DNA from: Parachryseolinea silvisoli
GTDB taxonomy: Bacteria; Bacteroidota; Bacteroidia; Cytophagales; Cyclobacteriaceae
DNA length: 64,000 bases
Direction of reading: 5' to 3'
NCBI RefSeq assembly: GCF_021190955.1
Contig: NZ_JAIOAO010000001.1
Location: 186,001 to 250,000, forward strand
Shown here: positions 4,899 to 29,442 of the stretch, one piece after another
Layout of the letters: each line of letters starts with the position of its first letter
Numbering within the stretch: the first letter of the stretch is position 1
Made by a program: the position numbers and the translations under genes
The notes under the pieces: generated by a model
The model's input: only the letters and a program-made list of their open reading frames with translations
What the model was told of the DNA's origin: nothing
Database searches by the model: none

Positions 4899-5855
4899 AT
4901 GGAATTTGGAAAGGTAGATCCGAACACACTCGACGCAATTGACTTCACACTCCCGGCAGACCCTGCCGGGACCACGGCTATACTGCAGGCAACGAACCAC
5001 GCCAGGCCGGAAATCTTTGTCGGGTGTGCCAAGTGGGGACGCAAAGACTGGGTCGGTAAGGTCTACCCACCCGGCACGCGGGAGTCGGACTTTCTGGAAC
5101 ACTACGCACGCCATTTCAACTGCATTGAAATGAACGCCACGTTTTATCGGATGCCGACAGTAAGCCAAACCAATAGCTGGCGCGAGAAGGTAGGACCTGA
5201 TTTTAAGTTCTGCCCCAAGTTCACGGAAGACATCACCCATGGGAAACGACTAAAAGATGTACAGGAGCTAACCGATCGCTTCCTGGAAGGTATAGCAGGG
5301 TTTCAAAACAACCTGGGCCCTATCTTCCTGATGCCGCACCCCAGCATGGGACCGCAGACGCAGGATACCCTCGAAGCATTTTTAAAAGCGCTCCCGCGCG
5401 ACCTCGACGTCTTTGTAGAATTCAGAAACACGGGTTGGTTCAGCGACCCGCAGGCGTTCAAGTCCGTCTTTGAAATGTTAACGCACAATCATTACGGCTC
5501 CGTTATTTCCGATGCCTCGGGACGACGCGATTGTGTGCACATGCGGCTGACGACGCCAGAGGCTTTTATCCGGTTTGTAGGCAACGGCCTGCACCCCACA
5601 GACTATACGCGCATCGACGCATGGGTACAGCGCATCAAACAGTGGATGGGCCACGGCATTCAGAAGATATACTTCTTCATGCACCAGCACGACGAGCTTC
5701 ATTCGCCCGAGCTGATCAAATACTTCATCGCAGAGCTAAACAAACATTGTGGCACAAACGTACGGGAGCCGGCGTTTATTCCCCAGCAAAGTACGTTGTT
5801 CGATCTTCCGCCGATGAGTGCCCCCACCGGGCGAAGACCTTCGCGAAAATTCTGA
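4899..5855 (+). CDS. DUF72 family protein
   Basis: The 318-residue cytoplasmic protein shows the DUF72 TIM-barrel signature: IFVGCAKWGRKDWVGKVYP near the start, then FNCIEMNATFYRMP, then FKFCPKFTEDITH, and a late VFVEFRNTGW. ATG 4899 is preferred because the GTG at 4863 lies inside the hairpin at 4861-4890. The biochemical activity of the family is not established. It meets the reverse-strand M48 protease gene end to end with no gap. Confidence 0.85.
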   Translation: MEFGKVDPNTLDAIDFTLPADPAGTTAILQATNHARPEIFVGCAKWGRKDWVGKVYPPGTRESDFLEHYARHFNCIEMNATFYRMPTVSQTNSWREKVGPDFKFCPKFTEDITHGKRLKDVQELTDRFLEGIAGFQNNLGPIFLMPHPSMGPQTQDTLEAFLKALPRDLDVFVEFRNTGWFSDPQAFKSVFEMLTHNHYGSVISDASGRRDCVHMRLTTPEAFIRFVGNGLHPTDYTRIDAWVQRIKQWMGHGIQKIYFFMHQHDELHSPELIKYFIAELNKHCGTNVREPAFIPQQSTLFDLPPMSAPTGRRPSRKF

Positions 5856-8077: not shown

Positions 8078-11000
8078 TCACAGGGCCTTATGCCCTACCC
8101 CACCGAAGGTATACAGTGTGGCCTCGCGTACATTACCGGACAGTGTGATCTGTCGCGACGACTGCGACAGATAGCCCGCCCCATAGAACAATTCCACCCG
8201 TTGCTTGCGGCCGTCGGTATATACCACCTCCAGCCTGCAGTCCAGTGGCCCCGGCGTAATATGCCGGGTTTCGCCCTGTACAGGTACCTGAAACACTTTC
8301 AGGCTGTCTCGGTTTTGTGATGCCAGAAACAGCTCACCTTTCGGCATCGGTACCCGCACCAATGCCTTGGCATCGCCGGGTACATAGAAGCCACTTTGTT
8401 CGGACGGCACTACGCGAAAGGCCCCTTTTCCATCGCCCAGCAGCACCAGCCCGGTAAAGGCATCATACCGGCCGGCAAACACCTCATTGCCATAATCATT
8501 GCCGACAAGCAGCACATCCTGGTGGCCATCGCGATTGACGTCGGTTGTCACCATGCCGTTGACAGGGGCTACCTGCACCGCCATGGGCAACGCATGTAGG
8601 GTAAACCGCCCCCCGCCCCCATTTTCGATATACGCCGAGCGCAGCTGGTTTGCCTCCAGCACGACAACGTCTTTCAACTCTTCGGGTGAAAGCAAATTCT
8701 GCATGGTGACCTTGCTGTACTGTTTATAGCGCGCATACTTGTTCCGGAACTTCGGGCTCTGCGAGTTGATCTCATCCCAGAAATGCACGGGAAACAGGCG
8801 TTTGGTATCGTCTGTCATAGACGTTTTCATATAGCACGCCAGCACCGGGTCAATGCTGCCATTGCCATCGACATCCTTGGCCGTAAGGCGCAGCGGATAC
8901 TCTTTCGTTACCTGAAAGCCATTGTTCTCGCCCAGGTTGCCGGCCAGATAATCGGTGTCGCCATCCTCATCAAAGTCGCCCGCTACCAGGCTGTTCCACC
9001 ACCCTACCGATGTTTCAACCCCCGTCTGTTCGATGCGTTGCAACATGCCCGATTGGTTCCGGAAAAAGGTGATCGGCATAAACTCGCCGGCCACCACCAG
9101 GTCTACACGGCCATCGTTGTCGATATCCGACCAGAGCGCATCCGTGACCATGCCCACCCGGCGCAACGCAGGGGCCACTGATTCCGTCACATCGGTAAAC
9201 CGGCCGCCCTGGTTCTGCAACAGGTAGCTGTCGGGTGATAACGGATAGCTGCCGGGAATCACGCGCCCGCCGACAAACAGGTCGAGATCGCCGTCGGCGT
9301 CATAGTCCGCCGCCCGTACGCACGAGCTGCTGGCTTGTATCACGGGAAGCCTATCGGCGTCCTCGGTAAACTGCCCTTTGCCATTATTGATGTATACACT
9401 GTGGCGATACCGTTCGGCCGCAGCATTTTCGACACTTCCCGCGGATACGTACAAGTCGAGGTCGCCGTCAAGGTCAGCGTCGAACAGCAGCATTCCGGCC
9501 ATTTCGCGTTGTTTGTCGTTGGAGCGGAGCGCCTGGGGTACCCGTTGAAAGGTGCCGTCTTTCTTTTGAATAAATACGGCCGGTTCCTGGTTGGCCGAGG
9601 CGCCGATGACCACATCGTCGAGGCCATCGCCGTTTATGTCGCCACTACACAACGCGGGGCCTGCCTGTGAGAACTTATGGGGCAAGGTGCGCTGCAGGTT
9701 AAAGTCAATCTTGTCTTCCTCCTCGTGCCGGTACGCAACCTTGTCCGGCGCGGCGGCCAGTAACGGCGCGGCTACGCGGTCCATCCAGGCCGGCCGGGGC
9801 GCTGTCGGGGCGTTCGCTTGGGCGGTAACATCCAGCACCTGGTTTGCCGGCACCTGGACCAACTGTTGCAACGTGCCGTCGGGCCATGCAATCCACACCG
9901 TATCAGCCTGGCGGGAAGCGCCCAGGCCAAAGTGTAGCGTCGGCTCCACCGTAGACAAGAACCCACGCGAAGGATAATACTCCTGGTACTGCGTGCGATT
10001 GCCGTCGCGCAACCACACCTTGGCACCCACCGCCATCACGCCTTGCGGGAAACGTACCCGCAGAAAGTTGCTCGCGGGCGGTGCATCACTGTCCGGAGTA
10101 TATAATGTATTTTCAAAAAACAAGGCAGCTTCATTGATATCGCTGACGACATAATCCAGGTCACCATCGTTGTCGAAGTCCGCATACGCGGCACCGTTGG
10201 AAAACGACGGCACGTCAAGGCCCCATGCTTTGGTGGCATCCGTAAAAGTCAAATCACCATTATTGCGAAAGGCGTAGTTCGGTATACGTACTACTGGAAT
10301 CGAGTCAATGAGCTGTGCAGCGCTGGCCACTTTCCCCACGTCGTTACGGTAATTTGAAAAATCCTTGTCGGTTACGTCTTTGGGGAAACCGTTGGTGACG
10401 AGCAGGTCTTTATACCCGTCGTTATCGATGTCGGCGAACAAGGGTGACCAGCTCCACTCCGTCTGGTACACCCCAGCCATCTGACCGATCTCGCTGAACT
10501 TGATACCTTTCTCAAACCCGTTGTTCAGGTGCAGCATGTTACGCACATACTGGTACTCGTAGCCATACTTTTCGTTGTGGATATAGTTGAGGTACGATTT
10601 ATTGCTGATGGTGGTCTTTTTACGATCGTTGTTTTCGGGCAGCATGTCGACCGTAATGATGTCGGGCCGGCCGTCATTGTTGATGTCACCGGCATCGTTG
10701 CCCATCGAGAATTGACTCTGATGGCCTACGTATTCGGCAATTTTGTTACGGAAGGTGCCGTCGCGCTGGTTCATGTACAATACATCGTTCGACAAGTAGT
10801 CGTTTGAAATATAGAGATCCGGCCAACCATCGAGGTTTAGATCGGCAACCGAGAGGCCCAGGCCAAAGCCTTCCAGGGTGATCCCCGCGGTGACGGATAC
10901 GTCCGTAAAGGTGCCGTTGCCATTGTTGCGATAGAGACGGTCGTTGTTGAGTGCCGTGCCATCGGCAATTTTGGGCCGGTAGTTTGTGGGCAGATGATCC

Positions 11001-25003: not shown

Positions 25004-25636
25004 ATGGTAAAGATAGTCGTTGTCGATCAGAATGCCCTTTCCAGAATCGGTCTGGTGGCGCTCTTGAAACAGGATGCGCGGTTTGAGCTTGTGGGTGATT
25101 TCAAAAGTTTTCATACCGTGCGACCGCTCATTCCCACCCTGGACGCCGACCTGGTCATCATCGATATATCCCTGAACCGCGAAGGGGAAGGAGAAGATGT
25201 CGCCACCCACATCAAACACCTGCGCCAGGACATTAAGGTCATTATTCTGACCTTTCACAAAGAAGAGTTTCATATTCTGAATGCCGTGGAGACCGGCATC
25301 GATGGATACATCCATAAAGACTCCGAGGCGGACGAATTGCTGCTGGGAATAAACCGGGTATTGGAGGGCGAGAAGTTCTTTTCACGCGAAGTCTCCAACC
25401 TCCTGATCGGCAACCTGGCCAAGAAAAACTATCGCGGGCATCCGTTCCTGACCAGCAAAGAGAAAGAGATCATCCGGTATATCATGGAAGGTTACTCCAG
25501 TAAAGAGATCGCCGCCTTGTTGGAGGTCAGTCCCCGTACCATCGACACGCACCGCGCCAACATCCTGGGCAAATTCAATCTCAAGAACACGACGGAGCTG
25601 ATCACGCGCATCGCTGAGCAGAAGATTCGATTATAG
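25004..25636 (+). CDS. NarL/FixJ-type response regulator, orphan
   Basis: The 210-residue protein has a receiver domain (1-120) with the phosphoacceptor Asp54 in LVIIDISLNREG, the switch Thr in VIILTFHKEE and the Lys in YIHKDSEADE. A LuxR/NarL helix-turn-helix occupies about 145-205 (LTSKEKEIIRYIMEGYSSKEIAALL, then SPRTIDTHRANILGKF). The acidic pair that binds magnesium is Asp8-Gln9 rather than two acids, so phosphorylation may be altered. No histidine kinase is adjacent. The gene borders the repeat-bearing intergenic region. Confidence 0.93.
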   Translation: MVKIVVVDQNALSRIGLVALLKQDARFELVGDFKSFHTVRPLIPTLDADLVIIDISLNREGEGEDVATHIKHLRQDIKVIILTFHKEEFHILNAVETGIDGYIHKDSEADELLLGINRVLEGEKFFSREVSNLLIGNLAKKNYRGHPFLTSKEKEIIRYIMEGYSSKEIAALLEVSPRTIDTHRANILGKFNLKNTTELITRIAEQKIRL

Positions 25637-25666
25637 TAGCGGGGCCTTCGCGCCGGCAAAGTTCAC

Positions 25667-25796
25667 ATTCACGTCAAAAATTACCGCAGAATACCGCCAA
25701 AAGCGACGATGTCTCAGAGTTGAGTCAGTGTATAGCCAGCGTTGAGTCAGACATAAGCCAGTGCTAAAGGGCTGAGACATGACTCGGTCATGTCTC
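25667..25796. repeat. Structured repeat, copy 1 (five CAG cores, 11-bp period)
   Basis: The copy opens with ATTCACGTCAAAAATTACCG and runs through GCCAAAAGCGACGATGTCTC. CAG cores then stand at 25715, 25726, 25737, 25748 and 25759, exactly 11 bp apart, in units alternating TTGAGTCAG and ATAGCCAG/ATAAGCCAG. GTCTCAG (25711-25717) is complementary to CTGAGAC (25772-25778). That same segment begins a perfect hairpin, GAGACATGAC (25774-25783) with GTCATGTCTC (25787-25796) and loop TCG, so the two pairings exclude each other. Confidence 0.75.
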
Positions 25797-25874
25797 CCTG
25801 TTCCCTTACAAACATCCCCTGCACTCCGCCGCCCGTCCCCTTGCGCTCCACTCCCTTTCCTAACCCCACGCCAA

Positions 25875-26004
25875 ATTCAAGTCAAAAATTACCGCAGAAA
25901 TAACGGCCAAAAGCGAGGATGTCTCCGTGTTGAGTCCGTGTATAGCCCGAGTATAGTCCGATATAAGCCCGTGCTAAAGGGCGGAGATATCGCGCCCTCA
26001 TCTC
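25875..26004. repeat. Structured repeat, copy 2 (five CCG cores, 11-bp period)
   Basis: The copy opens with ATTCAAGTCAAAAATTACCG and matches copy 1 along about 130 bp with two single-base insertions in its left part. The five cores are at 25925, 25936, 25947, 25958 and 25969, again 11 bp apart, and every one reads CCG instead of CAG. GTCTCCG (25921-25927) pairs with CGGAGAT (25982-25988) with one G-T pair. GAGAT (25984-25988) can instead pair with ATCTC (26000-26004), as in copy 1. Confidence 0.75.
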
Positions 26005-26505
26005 ACACGATGAGCCTGCTAACACTCCCTTTTACCGGCGACCGGCCCTCTTTGCCAGCGCTTCTGCACACCTTCCTTTCAACATTTCATCAACCCATCT
26101 CCGTATTCGTCGCAACGGTCTTTTATCACGGGATTTTACTGCTAACGATCGAAAAAAAGTGAATCGCCGTTTCGCTTCGCAGTACTGATACAGACCTCCG
26201 TATTTTTTCCAGCGCCGCCTAGGTAAAAATGCGGATTGATTCATTCATAGGGTCAGTATTACCTTACTATAGCAAAAAAACTATCCTGAAACCTAAATCG
26301 ATGATCTATATGAAACCTACTTTTCATCCTCTTCGCCTCTGAGCAGGCAATTGCAGTTTAAAATCTAACTGATCCTCATTGTTTGTCCGGTGTATCGGTT
26401 GCCTGTACGGCACCCTGATGCCATCTATTTTCTTTTTTGTACGGAGCATTCGCCCGCGTGTGGCGAAGCGAGACCCTATTGTTTTAAAAGTATACCAACC
26501 CCAAC

Positions 26506-29442
26506 ATGAAGATGAAATTATTTATACCCCTTTTATGCACACTCCTGCTGTCGGTCGCAGCCCTTCCAGGCTTTGCGCAGACGAAGACCATTACCGGTAA
26601 AGTATATTCCACCGACGGTACGCCCTTGCCCGGGGTGAGTGTCATCATCAAGGGAAGCGCCGGCAAAGGCACACTGACCGATGCGCAGGGGCTCTATACA
26701 CTCGAGGCTACGCCGGAAGATGTACTGGTTTTTTCTTTTATCGGCCTGAAGTCAAAAGAGCTGCCGGTGGGAACAGGTTCTACTCTTGATGCCCCCATGG
26801 AAGAGTCGATGAACGAGCTTACCGAAATCGTGGTAACAGGCACTCGGAGCGTGGGGCGTACCGTGCTGGAAACACCAGTGCCGGTCGATGTGATTCCGAT
26901 CCAGGATATCATGGGTGAGCTCCCCCAGATCGACCTGGGTCAGATGCTGGCGATCCTGGCCCCGAGCTTTAACGCCGTCCGTTCGCAGGGAGGTGACCTC
27001 GACTCACACGTCGACCCCGCGCAGCTGCGCAACCTCGCTCCCAACCAAACGCTGGTGCTCGTGAACGGCAAGCGTCGTCATACGTCGGCCTTGCTGATTA
27101 CGTCGACCGCCGTCGGCAGTCCTTCTACCTCGGTCGACTTAATGACCATACCAGCCTCGGCTATTGAGAAGGTCGAGATCTTGCGCGACGGCGCGGCTGC
27201 ACAGTATGGCTCTGACGCAGTGGCCGGTGTAATTAACATCGTGTTAAAGAAAGGCACCGACAAGCTTACCGGCAGCTTTACGGGTGGTGGCTACCTGAAC
27301 TCGGGTGGTGATGCCGGTCCGCTCACCAACAAAGGAGATCCGGATGGATATAATTATCAGCTCACCGCCAATTACGGCTTTTCACTCGGGCCGAAAGGGT
27401 TCATCAACCTGTCGGGTGAGATCACCCAACGCCGCGCCACGCTGCGGCCGTTCGTAAACGACTGGGAGGTATACGATGGCTCCTACCTGAACAATACGCG
27501 CACGGATAAAACTGGCAACCCCATCATTACCAACCCCGAGCTCATTGCCGCCCAGGCCTCGGGCAATGAATCACTGGCCGCCACGCTTCAGACACAAGAG
27601 GGACTGATGGGCGCGCGTGGACTGTCTTTTGAAGATTATGCAGTCTATGCCGGTATGCCGGCCATTACACTCGGCAGCTTATTCTATAACTCCGAATATA
27701 CCATCGGCCCCAATACTACCTTCTATACCTTTGGCGGTCTGTCCTATAAATTCCTGGAAGGATACTCCTGTTACTTCCGGCGACCGGCACAAACAGATCG
27801 TTTTAACTATCTGCTCTACCCGAACGGCTTCCGGCCACAGATGACCTCAAACACCAGCGACTTCTCCAACACGGTCGGCATTCGCAGCAAAGCAGGACTC
27901 TTCAACATGGACTTCAGCAACACCTTTGGCCGCAACAAGATGCGCATCGGCATGGTGAATACGTTCAACGCCTCAATCGGCTCGAACTCGCCCGTGGAAA
28001 TGAACCTGGGCACACACCAGTTTACGCAGAACTCCACCAACCTCGACTTTTCGCATAACTTCAAAGAAGTCGCCAACGGCCTCAACATCGCCTTTGGTGC
28101 GGAGATGCGCGTGGAGAACTATAAGATCATCCACGGCCAGGAAGAAAGCTACACGTTTGGAGATGCCGGTGTATTGAAGATCACGGAAGACGGCTACCTG
28201 GTGGGTGCCGACGGCAAGCCATTGGAAAATGAAAAAGGTGAACCGATCGTCGACGCCAACGGTGACCCGTTGTGGGTACGACGCGGCGACGAGGTCGTGG
28301 TGAAGAATTTTGCTTCCAACTGCCAGTGCTTTGCCGGCTTCGGTCCCAAGAATGAGCGCGATGAATACCGCACCATGCTGGCGGCCTACGTTGACGCTGA
28401 ATTAGACCTGACGGAAGACCTGCTGATCGCCGGTGCTACGCGCGTCGAAAATTACTCTGACTTCGGTAGTGTCGTGACCGGCAAGATCGCCGCACGGTAT
28501 ACGGTGATGAAGAACCTTGCCATCCGGGCTTCGGCCTCTTCCGGCTTCCGCGCGCCGTCTTTACAAGAATTGAACTATACCCATACGGCAACAGCTTTCC
28601 TGCCCGATGCAAACGGTGTTCCGCAGCCAGTCGACAACACCACCTTCCCTACGAATAGTACCGCCGCGCGGGCCATTGGCATCAAGGAACTATCAGAGGA
28701 ACGTTCGACCAGCTATGGCGCCGGCCTGACATATCAGCCCATTCTGGGGCTTGAGCTTACCATCGATGCTTACCAGATCGATGTACGCGACCGGGTCTTC
28801 CGTACCAATACGTTCAATGCAACCGAAGTAGGTCACAATTATGAAGAGGTAATCGGCGTCGGCAGCGAAGCGCAGTTCTTCGTCAATGGTGCCAATGTAC
28901 GCTCGAAAGGCCTCGAGATGGTAGGAGCCTATACCACCAGCCTGACAGGCACCTCGCAGATCACGGTCAGCCTGGCATCCATCTTCAGCAAGAATGAGAT
29001 TACCAAACGTAAAATTATAGACCTGGATGTCGACAACCTGACCGACGAGGAGCTGGTAGAAAAATACCTGAACCGCCAGGTGATGGGGCAATTCGAAACG
29101 GGCACGCCGCGCACCAAGCTGATCGGATCGATCAACTATCGCGTCGGCAAACTTTCCACGATGTTACGCGGAACATATTTTGGAAAAGTTACCGAGCTTT
29201 CGATCGAAGGCGACGGTGCGGGAAATTACTGGGATCAAACGTTTTCGGCGCAAACTATATTTGACCTCAGCGTTAGCTACGATGTCAACCCCAATATCAA
29301 ATTATCCATAGGCGGTAATAATATACTCGATACTTATCCCGATATTATGCGTGCGGAGAACAGAGGATTCTACCTGTATTCCAACAATCAGCAAGGATCC
29401 AGCGGGGCGTATTATTATGGTCGTATCATGTTCAACTTCTAA
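26506..29442 (+). CDS. TonB-dependent outer-membrane receptor
   Basis: The 978-residue protein has a signal peptide cleaved near PGFA-QT, and a carboxypeptidase-regulatory-like domain (about 27-105, ITGKVYSTDGTPLPGVSVIIKG and FSFIGLKSKELPV). A TonB-box-like stretch (ELTEIVVTGTRS) follows, then a plug (LRNLAPNQTLVLVNGKRRH, EKVEILRDGAAAQYGSDAVAGVINIVLKK) and a barrel ending RIMFNF. No SusD partner follows, so it is a classic siderophore, cobalamin or small-ligand type receptor rather than SusC. It is followed directly by a lipoprotein gene (stop and next possible start overlap, TAATG). Confidence 0.95.
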   Translation: MKMKLFIPLLCTLLLSVAALPGFAQTKTITGKVYSTDGTPLPGVSVIIKGSAGKGTLTDAQGLYTLEATPEDVLVFSFIGLKSKELPVGTGSTLDAPMEESMNELTEIVVTGTRSVGRTVLETPVPVDVIPIQDIMGELPQIDLGQMLAILAPSFNAVRSQGGDLDSHVDPAQLRNLAPNQTLVLVNGKRRHTSALLITSTAVGSPSTSVDLMTIPASAIEKVEILRDGAAAQYGSDAVAGVINIVLKKGTDKLTGSFTGGGYLNSGGDAGPLTNKGDPDGYNYQLTANYGFSLGPKGFINLSGEITQRRATLRPFVNDWEVYDGSYLNNTRTDKTGNPIITNPELIAAQASGNESLAATLQTQEGLMGARGLSFEDYAVYAGMPAITLGSLFYNSEYTIGPNTTFYTFGGLSYKFLEGYSCYFRRPAQTDRFNYLLYPNGFRPQMTSNTSDFSNTVGIRSKAGLFNMDFSNTFGRNKMRIGMVNTFNASIGSNSPVEMNLGTHQFTQNSTNLDFSHNFKEVANGLNIAFGAEMRVENYKIIHGQEESYTFGDAGVLKITEDGYLVGADGKPLENEKGEPIVDANGDPLWVRRGDEVVVKNFASNCQCFAGFGPKNERDEYRTMLAAYVDAELDLTEDLLIAGATRVENYSDFGSVVTGKIAARYTVMKNLAIRASASSGFRAPSLQELNYTHTATAFLPDANGVPQPVDNTTFPTNSTAARAIGIKELSEERSTSYGAGLTYQPILGLELTIDAYQIDVRDRVFRTNTFNATEVGHNYEEVIGVGSEAQFFVNGANVRSKGLEMVGAYTTSLTGTSQITVSLASIFSKNEITKRKIIDLDVDNLTDEELVEKYLNRQVMGQFETGTPRTKLIGSINYRVGKLSTMLRGTYFGKVTELSIEGDGAGNYWDQTFSAQTIFDLSVSYDVNPNIKLSIGGNNILDTYPDIMRAENRGFYLYSNNQQGSSGAYYYGRIMFNF

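Follow-up and report, generated by a model that had tools for sequence, protein, structure and literature searches.

REP/REPIN elements with RAYT are short, dispersed, extragenic and palindromic, and R1-type parC centromeres carry iterons in sets of five. The R1 protein ParR requires at least two 11-bp repeats (PMC9426499). The same period occurs in the operators of the MerR-type regulators CarH and CarA, which lie at promoters and comprise three to five repeats with the core TnnACA. CarH binds one face of these 11-bp tandem direct repeats, with one conserved core per unit (PMC9304148). Geminivirus iterons keep their positions and repeat pattern, while the identity of the motif is diverse between relatives (PMC12548392). 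Finally, the BrickBuilt MITE of Porphyromonas gingivalis is intergenic, is present in 19 copies, and consists of a leader, tandem units of 23 nt, and a tail (PMC4596501).

We analysed a window, meaning the whole stretch of 64,000 nucleotides from Parachryseolinea silvisoli, in which two elements stand between a response regulator gene and a TonB receptor gene. A preliminary description had taken them for two 130-bp copies of a repeat. There are indeed two, each nearer to 157 bp long (a 128-nt repeat plus a 28-nt lead). Its account of five cores 11 bp apart, all CAG in the first copy and all CCG in the second, can be read directly in the following features.

25004..25636, + strand: LuxR-type response regulator (Response_reg + GerE), flanking the copies
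25664-25820: copy 1, an intergenic element with lead, five 11-bp units, inverted arm and tail
25664..25713, + strand: lead of copy 1, with the shared 28-nt block (25664-25691) and then a stretch ending GATGTC
25714..25761, + strand: array of copy 1, five YCAG cores at exact 11-bp spacing (TCAG 25714, TCAG 25725, CCAG 25736, TCAG 25747, CCAG 25758, direct reading)
25772..25779, + strand: inverted arm of copy 1, CTGAGACA, complement of TGTCTCAG at 25710-25717
25785..25791, + strand: tail of copy 1, CGGTCAT, present in some other copies
25872-26030: copy 2, an intergenic element with lead, five 11-bp units and inverted arm
25872..25923, + strand: lead of copy 2, with the 28-nt block (25872-25899, 93% identical) and then a stretch ending GATGTC
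25924..25971, + strand: array of copy 2, five YCCG cores at exact 11-bp spacing (TCCG 25924, TCCG 25935, CCCG 25946, TCCG 25957, CCCG 25968, direct reading)
25982..25989, + strand: inverted arm of copy 2, CGGAGATA (direct reading)
26506..29442, + strand: TonB-dependent receptor, flanking the copies on the other side

In a repeat search, the two copies align over 128 nt at 75% identity with a spacing of 210, and their leads over 28 nt at 93% identity with a spacing of 208. The third core letter (hereafter N) differs between them in six matching changes, the 3' arm changing in step from CTGAGACA to CGGAGATA, just as first described. The five-core pattern TCNG-N7-(YCNG) has 2 matches in the window against a mean of 0 in 100 dinucleotide shuffles. 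At 25779-26162, overlapping copy 2, there is a mechanical ORF of 127 aa. No Rfam family reached its gathering score in the window.

The arrays resemble each of the known systems in part. They have the 11-bp direct repeats, conserved core, and free bases elsewhere of the CarH operator; unlike it, they lack TnnACA (by eye, the cores are YCNG or CTAG), end in an inverted unit, are dispersed in many copies, and switch cores. With R1-type ParR/parC they share 11-bp repeats, but parC is a plasmid locus beside parM/parR, whereas these are dispersed chromosomal copies, with a response regulator and a TonB receptor as neighbours in the window. The likeness to geminivirus iterons, a fixed layout with diverse motifs, is one of analogy only, since those belong to a viral origin with its own Rep and these to bacterial intergenic DNA. 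BrickBuilt shares the leader, tandem units and tail, and the intergenic setting; its units are of 23 nt against a period of 11 here, and the abstract of PMC4596501 mentions no split into core and spacer. The arrays are also short, dispersed, extragenic, and palindromic, as REP/REPIN elements are. We rejected a REP/RAYT origin because the one Y1_Tnp match of the genome (L128) has no lag-11 run (22/44) in its 3.2-kb locus. The preliminary description knew of no element with such a layout, and we found none among the matches listed from the open-access literature, including PMC4679880, PMC4596501, PMC12548392, PMC9304148, and PMC9426499.

The Y1_Tnp match is itself of note: at L128 1100-1990 (G000:C7) lies a RAYT-like Y1 transposase of 183 aa. 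The inverted repeat on either side of it, centred around CCTCGGGAGTCTGAAGACTCCCATTAG, is unrelated to the 11-bp arrays.

Dispersal and period of the arrays

The genome scan proposed in the preliminary description did find further copies. With blastn, the own genome (7.95 Mb, 13 contigs) shows 16 places; because both window copies fall into one of them, the number of copies is 17. Many of them, copy 1 included, have a lead near AAAGCRGGGATGTC. A covariance model built from these 17 blastn-found copies returned 25 matches in the same genome at E up to 10: all 17 copies at E 2.2e-15 or better, six matches with a CTAG core (E 1.1e-6 to 0.3), and two other weak matches, one of which is the wrong strand of a known copy. 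The CTAG-core pattern has 23 matches at 9 loci of this genome against 0 in the backward control, and these loci together with L065 make a sub-family of 10. Lead, last spacer, and tail are common to its members and the window copies, being close to GGATGTC or GGATAAG, to GATAAG, and to TGCTAAAAGGAC, respectively. Of the 10 arms, 6 contain CTAG and 4 CCAG (L062, L064, L065, L066). The genome also contains 11-bp arrays of quite different units, e.g., at L026, L032, L037, L094, and L098. As a side observation, long, nearly perfect inverted repeats of 11-mers occur at L094 12162-12330 and L187 15530-15700, where stems of about 30 bp seem possible by eye.

A strict lag scan of the window and 15 family loci, which had been chosen for the repeat, gave 13 runs at lag 11, two at lag 22, one at lag 18, and none at other lags from 4 to 30. 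The period is less conspicuous in DNA at large. When 400 kb of unselected stretches were scanned strictly along with the window, four lag-11 runs appeared, one of them copy 2, together with runs at periods 12 (1), 15 (4), 21 (4), 24 (2), 27 (1), 30 (3), and 33 (4); lag 11 stands out there only among the non-multiples of three, all others of which, from 4 to 32, gave none. In a second 400 kb it barely stands out: at 30/55 it has 4 runs, compared with 3 for lags 10 and 23.

We classed the surroundings of 21 elements by a hand count on mechanical ORFs, with L015 uncertain: 6 lie between convergent, 13 between codirectional, and 2 between divergent genes. Among the 13 between codirectional genes, 7 point with the genes and 6 against them on the same hand count, which argues against a role as sense RNA. 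The setting could suggest a topology or terminator site between genes, either wrapped in a gyrase-like manner or acting through Rho or a terminator, for which phasing alone would matter. In its favour are the intergenic position, with 2 of the 21 elements between divergent genes by hand count, the 11-bp period, and the many gaps that hold differing arrays in two species (see below). We nevertheless regard this explanation as very unlikely: wrapping has no need of the single-base concordance at N described in the next section, there is no orientation bias among codirectional genes (7 versus 6), and units with CTAG cores seem mostly to lack the YC steps associated with Rho.

When the flanking ORFs of 20 loci and of the window were compared with each other, no gene carried by the element was seen; the matches were apparent paralogues of ABC transporters and outer-membrane receptors, plus one uncharacterised gene, without a Pfam match, next to L009 and L061. 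As a separate observation, a multicopy gene (LDITGPLG... protein) lies beside arrays at L009 3206-4024 and L061 556-1434, the L009 copy having no Pfam match, and similar-looking multicopy genes adjoin arrays of the sister species (genome G002) in L173 and L177.

Concordance of the cores and complementarity of the arm

All five N are equal in 14 of the 17 copies and mixed in L011, L016, and L021; the copies were collected with homogeneous queries, and mixed arrays may be under-sampled. We compared the agreement between units of one copy (17 copies, 5 units) with that obtained when each unit column was shuffled among copies. At unit position 3, which is N, agreement within copies was 0.900 against 0.460 expected (sd 0.038, z 11.6; 0/2000 shuffles as high). 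The other ten positions gave z from −2.1 to +0.4, with positions 2 and 4 uninformative because they hardly vary and positions 6 to 11 resting on four spacers. Copying of units would carry the spacers too, and this position-wise test, in which N alone is concordant, therefore rules out gene conversion of whole units.

The preliminary description had offered, as an alternative to pairing, array-wide gene conversion of a protein-binding iteron. The conversion has to be given up, as units of one copy agree in their spacers no more than chance allows, and a tree of the non-core columns, built with cores masked, interleaves the core types; the helically phased, protein-binding iteron we retain as a putative reading. 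In that tree, which comes from 87 columns and has mostly weak branches, copies with A and with C at N imply at least 6 changes among 17. L019 (C) and L020 (A) are sisters, with support of 99/88 when 28 rows are used and of 89/87 when 17 are. Local recombination is possible for the two window copies, because the array letters of copy 2 are identical to those of L009.

The compensatory pairing first proposed survives in part. In 13 of the 17 copies the arm is complementary to the majority N, against a shuffled mean of 6.4 (0/5000 shuffles as high), but in L010, L013, and L019 the arm fails to match although all five units are identical. The same holds for L256 of G002, where five ATAG units face the arm CTGG. 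Units being concordant in these four elements despite the unmatched arm, their concordance is independent of it, and we discarded the arm as the sole hub of concordance.

One could still explain the elements by intramolecular pairing, with a hairpin of DNA or RNA in which the units serve as alternative partners of the 3' arm, and with compensatory selection or hairpin-templated (quasi-palindrome) mutation keeping cores and arm complementary. The 13 matched arms speak for it, and so does an outer stem, TGTCTCNG/CNGAGACA, that pairs in 83% of cells, a value reached in 5/500 shuffles; its covariation score, 0.151, was reached in 14/500. At L023 the arm complements unit 5 plus its spacer and the RNA fold has z −4.0, and other arrays (L094, L187) form long inverted repeats of 11-mers. 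Against this, pairs changed on both sides show no excess over shuffles (324/500), direct units cannot pair with each other at N, the unmatched arms leave the units concordant, the remaining four of the five copies folded as RNA gave z −1.9, −1.7, −1.7, and −0.4, and three copies folded as DNA gave −2.1, 0.0, and −1.2. Pairing seems to us an improbable account of the whole and, with arm and core in agreement in 13 of 17 copies, a possible second constraint beside reading by a factor.

The same gaps in a sister species and wider occurrence

The sister species G002 is ~85% identical to the own genome at flanking coding DNA. We compared 18 orthologous gaps, namely those of the window, of L012, and of 16 of the 19 typed flanks; L009 and L011 (weak matches only) and L063 (no match) were left out. 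Many of these gaps are occupied in both species: a lag-11 run of at least 28/55 is found in 12 of the 18 orthologous G002 gaps against 7 of 53 unselected ones (Fisher p 3.5e-5), the former ranging from 61 to 1005 bp and the latter from 150 to 900 bp between mechanical ORFs. In this count, the gaps of L015, L061, and L021 are anchored on one side, L018 was unscored and is included among the misses, L020 just reaches the threshold, and the L010 gap owes its run to a second array there.

By reading, CTAG is kept in both species in the L061 gap, and in the L010 and L020 gaps the tail is still related and the cores are different and mixed. Other array families fill the G002 gaps of the window, L012, L013, L015, L017, L023, and L064, and the arrays in those of L016 and L022 possibly match the second array of the same own-genome gap. 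Among the gaps outside the count, L062 holds a remnant, L021 a partial array, and L018 ~1 kb of other sequence. There is no element in the gaps of L014, L019, and L065, and no clean junction or target duplication is visible in these three.

Such empty gaps would be expected if the element were a non-autonomous MITE, with the 11-bp units as its subterminal transposase sites and with sub-families that follow different transposases. The elements are dispersed and intergenic with 8-bp TG..CA inverted ends, and they show copy bursts by species: the element query R1 has 21 matches in the own genome and 0 in 58 relatives, and matched the own genome alone, i.e., 1/59 and, in another set, 1/149. On the other hand, conserved sequence reaches past the inverted ends, no transposase gene stood out when the neighbours of the copies were compared with each other, and the presence of an array in both species at 12 of 18 orthologous gaps would, under independent insertion, need a strong site preference. 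On balance we consider a MITE unlikely.

The reciprocal set comprised seven G002 sites from the lag scan; L183 is the pair of L012, L173 and L177 were left out as lying beside the multicopy gene, and four were queried. L178 had no match, and the other three own-genome gaps hold an 11-bp run (33, 30, and 29 of 55), the last in a gap where lag 10 also reached 27 and an ATAG element is readable. Aligned by eye between the species, this ATAG element differs at 5/20 core and 1/28 spacer bases, the CTAG pair L061/L136 at 1/20 and 8/28, and L010/L206 at 12/20 and 12/28; greater divergence of core than spacer is thus seen in one pair of orthologues, and L061/L136 shows the reverse.

The pattern ATAGN7ATAGN7ATAG has 39 matches in G002 and 5 in the own genome; four other congeners have between 0 and 3. 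The count is not clean, because the backward control gives 23 for G002 and 5 for the own genome. Eight G002 elements (L256-L260, L183, L188, L204) have 5, 5, 5, 5, 5, 4, 5, and 5 ATAG units, respectively; L256-L260 were picked with the ATAG pattern, and their concordance is by choice. L256 alone among the eight has the layout of the window copies. The others (L257-L260, L183, L188, L204), distinct in lead and spacers, make up a second group that has the ATAG core as well. In the congener G003, no array reached the threshold in 51 gaps.

Further afield, 11 of the 390 genomes in the family search have matches to the CTAG pattern, which stands out only in the own genome (23 versus 0 in the control) and in G305, a genome of another genus with long 11-bp arrays (87 versus 1). 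Single matches elsewhere mean little because many genomes give backward-control matches (up to 25, in G172). Two structures of G305 deserve mention. In L152 (G305:C2), 1998-2485 and 9890-10376 are direct copies of a ~490-bp block with long 11-bp ATCAGAGA-core arrays, and the genes between the two blocks resemble, by reading, a type I restriction-modification set. L145 11347-11519 and L146 10721-10886 (G305:C1) are CCTAGNNNGAA 11-bp arrays in inverted orientation, ~44 kb apart.

A degenerate three-unit pattern found 36 stretches in the species-genome collection, against ~7 expected by chance on a hand estimate. By record title, 25 are from Bacteroidota (including Bacteroidales, Prevotella, Sphingobacterium, and Pedobacter), 4 from Lentisphaeria or Oligosphaeraceae, and 7 from others. 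Around the match, 33 of the 36 reach 30/55 at lag 11, and 31 lie outside ORFs of ≥90 aa. Many are plain tandem repeats, silent on core concordance because their spacers are identical too. The contigs of these stretches show no lag-11 excess away from the matches (5 runs versus 0-14 at other lags). Searches of plasmids and phages gave no similar DNA at E 0.01, and viral_contigs gave one pattern match. Some individual arrays in this broader set are of separate interest. In L242 (Lentisphaeria), the array is preceded by GGGATGTCTCCG, the lead of the window element, despite the other phylum. L244, from a Pseudomonadales MAG and hence outside Bacteroidota, has 11-bp phased runs at 1107-1225 and 5242-5316 (GATCTATTACG, GACCTGCAYTW). 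The Sphingobacterium runs at L222 686-803 and L232 3026-3135 have an TTAGGTTT-like core, unlike the TCCG arrays of the same contigs.

A candidate reader of the arrays

The arrays are phased and dispersed, their concordance is confined to the core, differing cores occur on one layout, and many of the same gaps are occupied in G002. The array class is real and apparently undescribed, while its mechanism is something we infer. Our preferred, if tentative, reading is that the units are iteron-like sites on one helix face, read by a candidate factor of changing specificity. Each copy would be a small dispersed intergenic element in which a lead is followed by five 11-bp units and then by an inverted unit at the end; the ~4-bp cores of the units, all on the same face of the helix, would be the sites that are bound. 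The reader would be an oligomeric, sequence-specific factor, probably a protein, presumably acting in trans and at the level of DNA; the inverted last site would cap the array. The five cores would change together because one factor reads all of them, and when specificity shifts between sub-families or species (TCAG, TCCG, and CTAG, with ATAG in G002), the direct units would follow and the layout would stay. Their role may lie in the spread of the element or in chromosome organisation between gene ends.

We favour a one-face DNA-binding oligomer because it accounts with one assumption for the phase, the concordance of ~4 bp, the free spacers, the varied cores, and the neutrality of orientation. 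One-face reading of 11-bp direct repeats has a working precedent in CarH, the use of 11-bp iterons one in the ParR of R1, and a fixed layout with diverse motifs one in geminivirus iterons. The neighbouring genes yielded no binding factor. As A, C, and CTAG cores coexist in one genome, either several readers or one relaxed reader would be needed.

A broader proposition, which we hold to be rather doubtful, is that these arrays belong to a widespread, hitherto unrecognised bacterial chromosomal class of iteron-hairpins, in which sites keep their intergenic places across species and the motif 'address' is rewritten as a set whenever a fast-evolving reader protein shifts its specificity. Such rewriting might be likened to a PRDM9- or centromere-like arms race.

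If a factor does read the cores, these elements would offer a natural series of coordinated site switches (CAG, CCG, CTAG, ATAG) on one layout. The series spans one genome and its sister species, which would make the co-evolution of DNA recognition directly testable. If true, this would also be a new class of intergenic DNA in places where annotation shows nothing.
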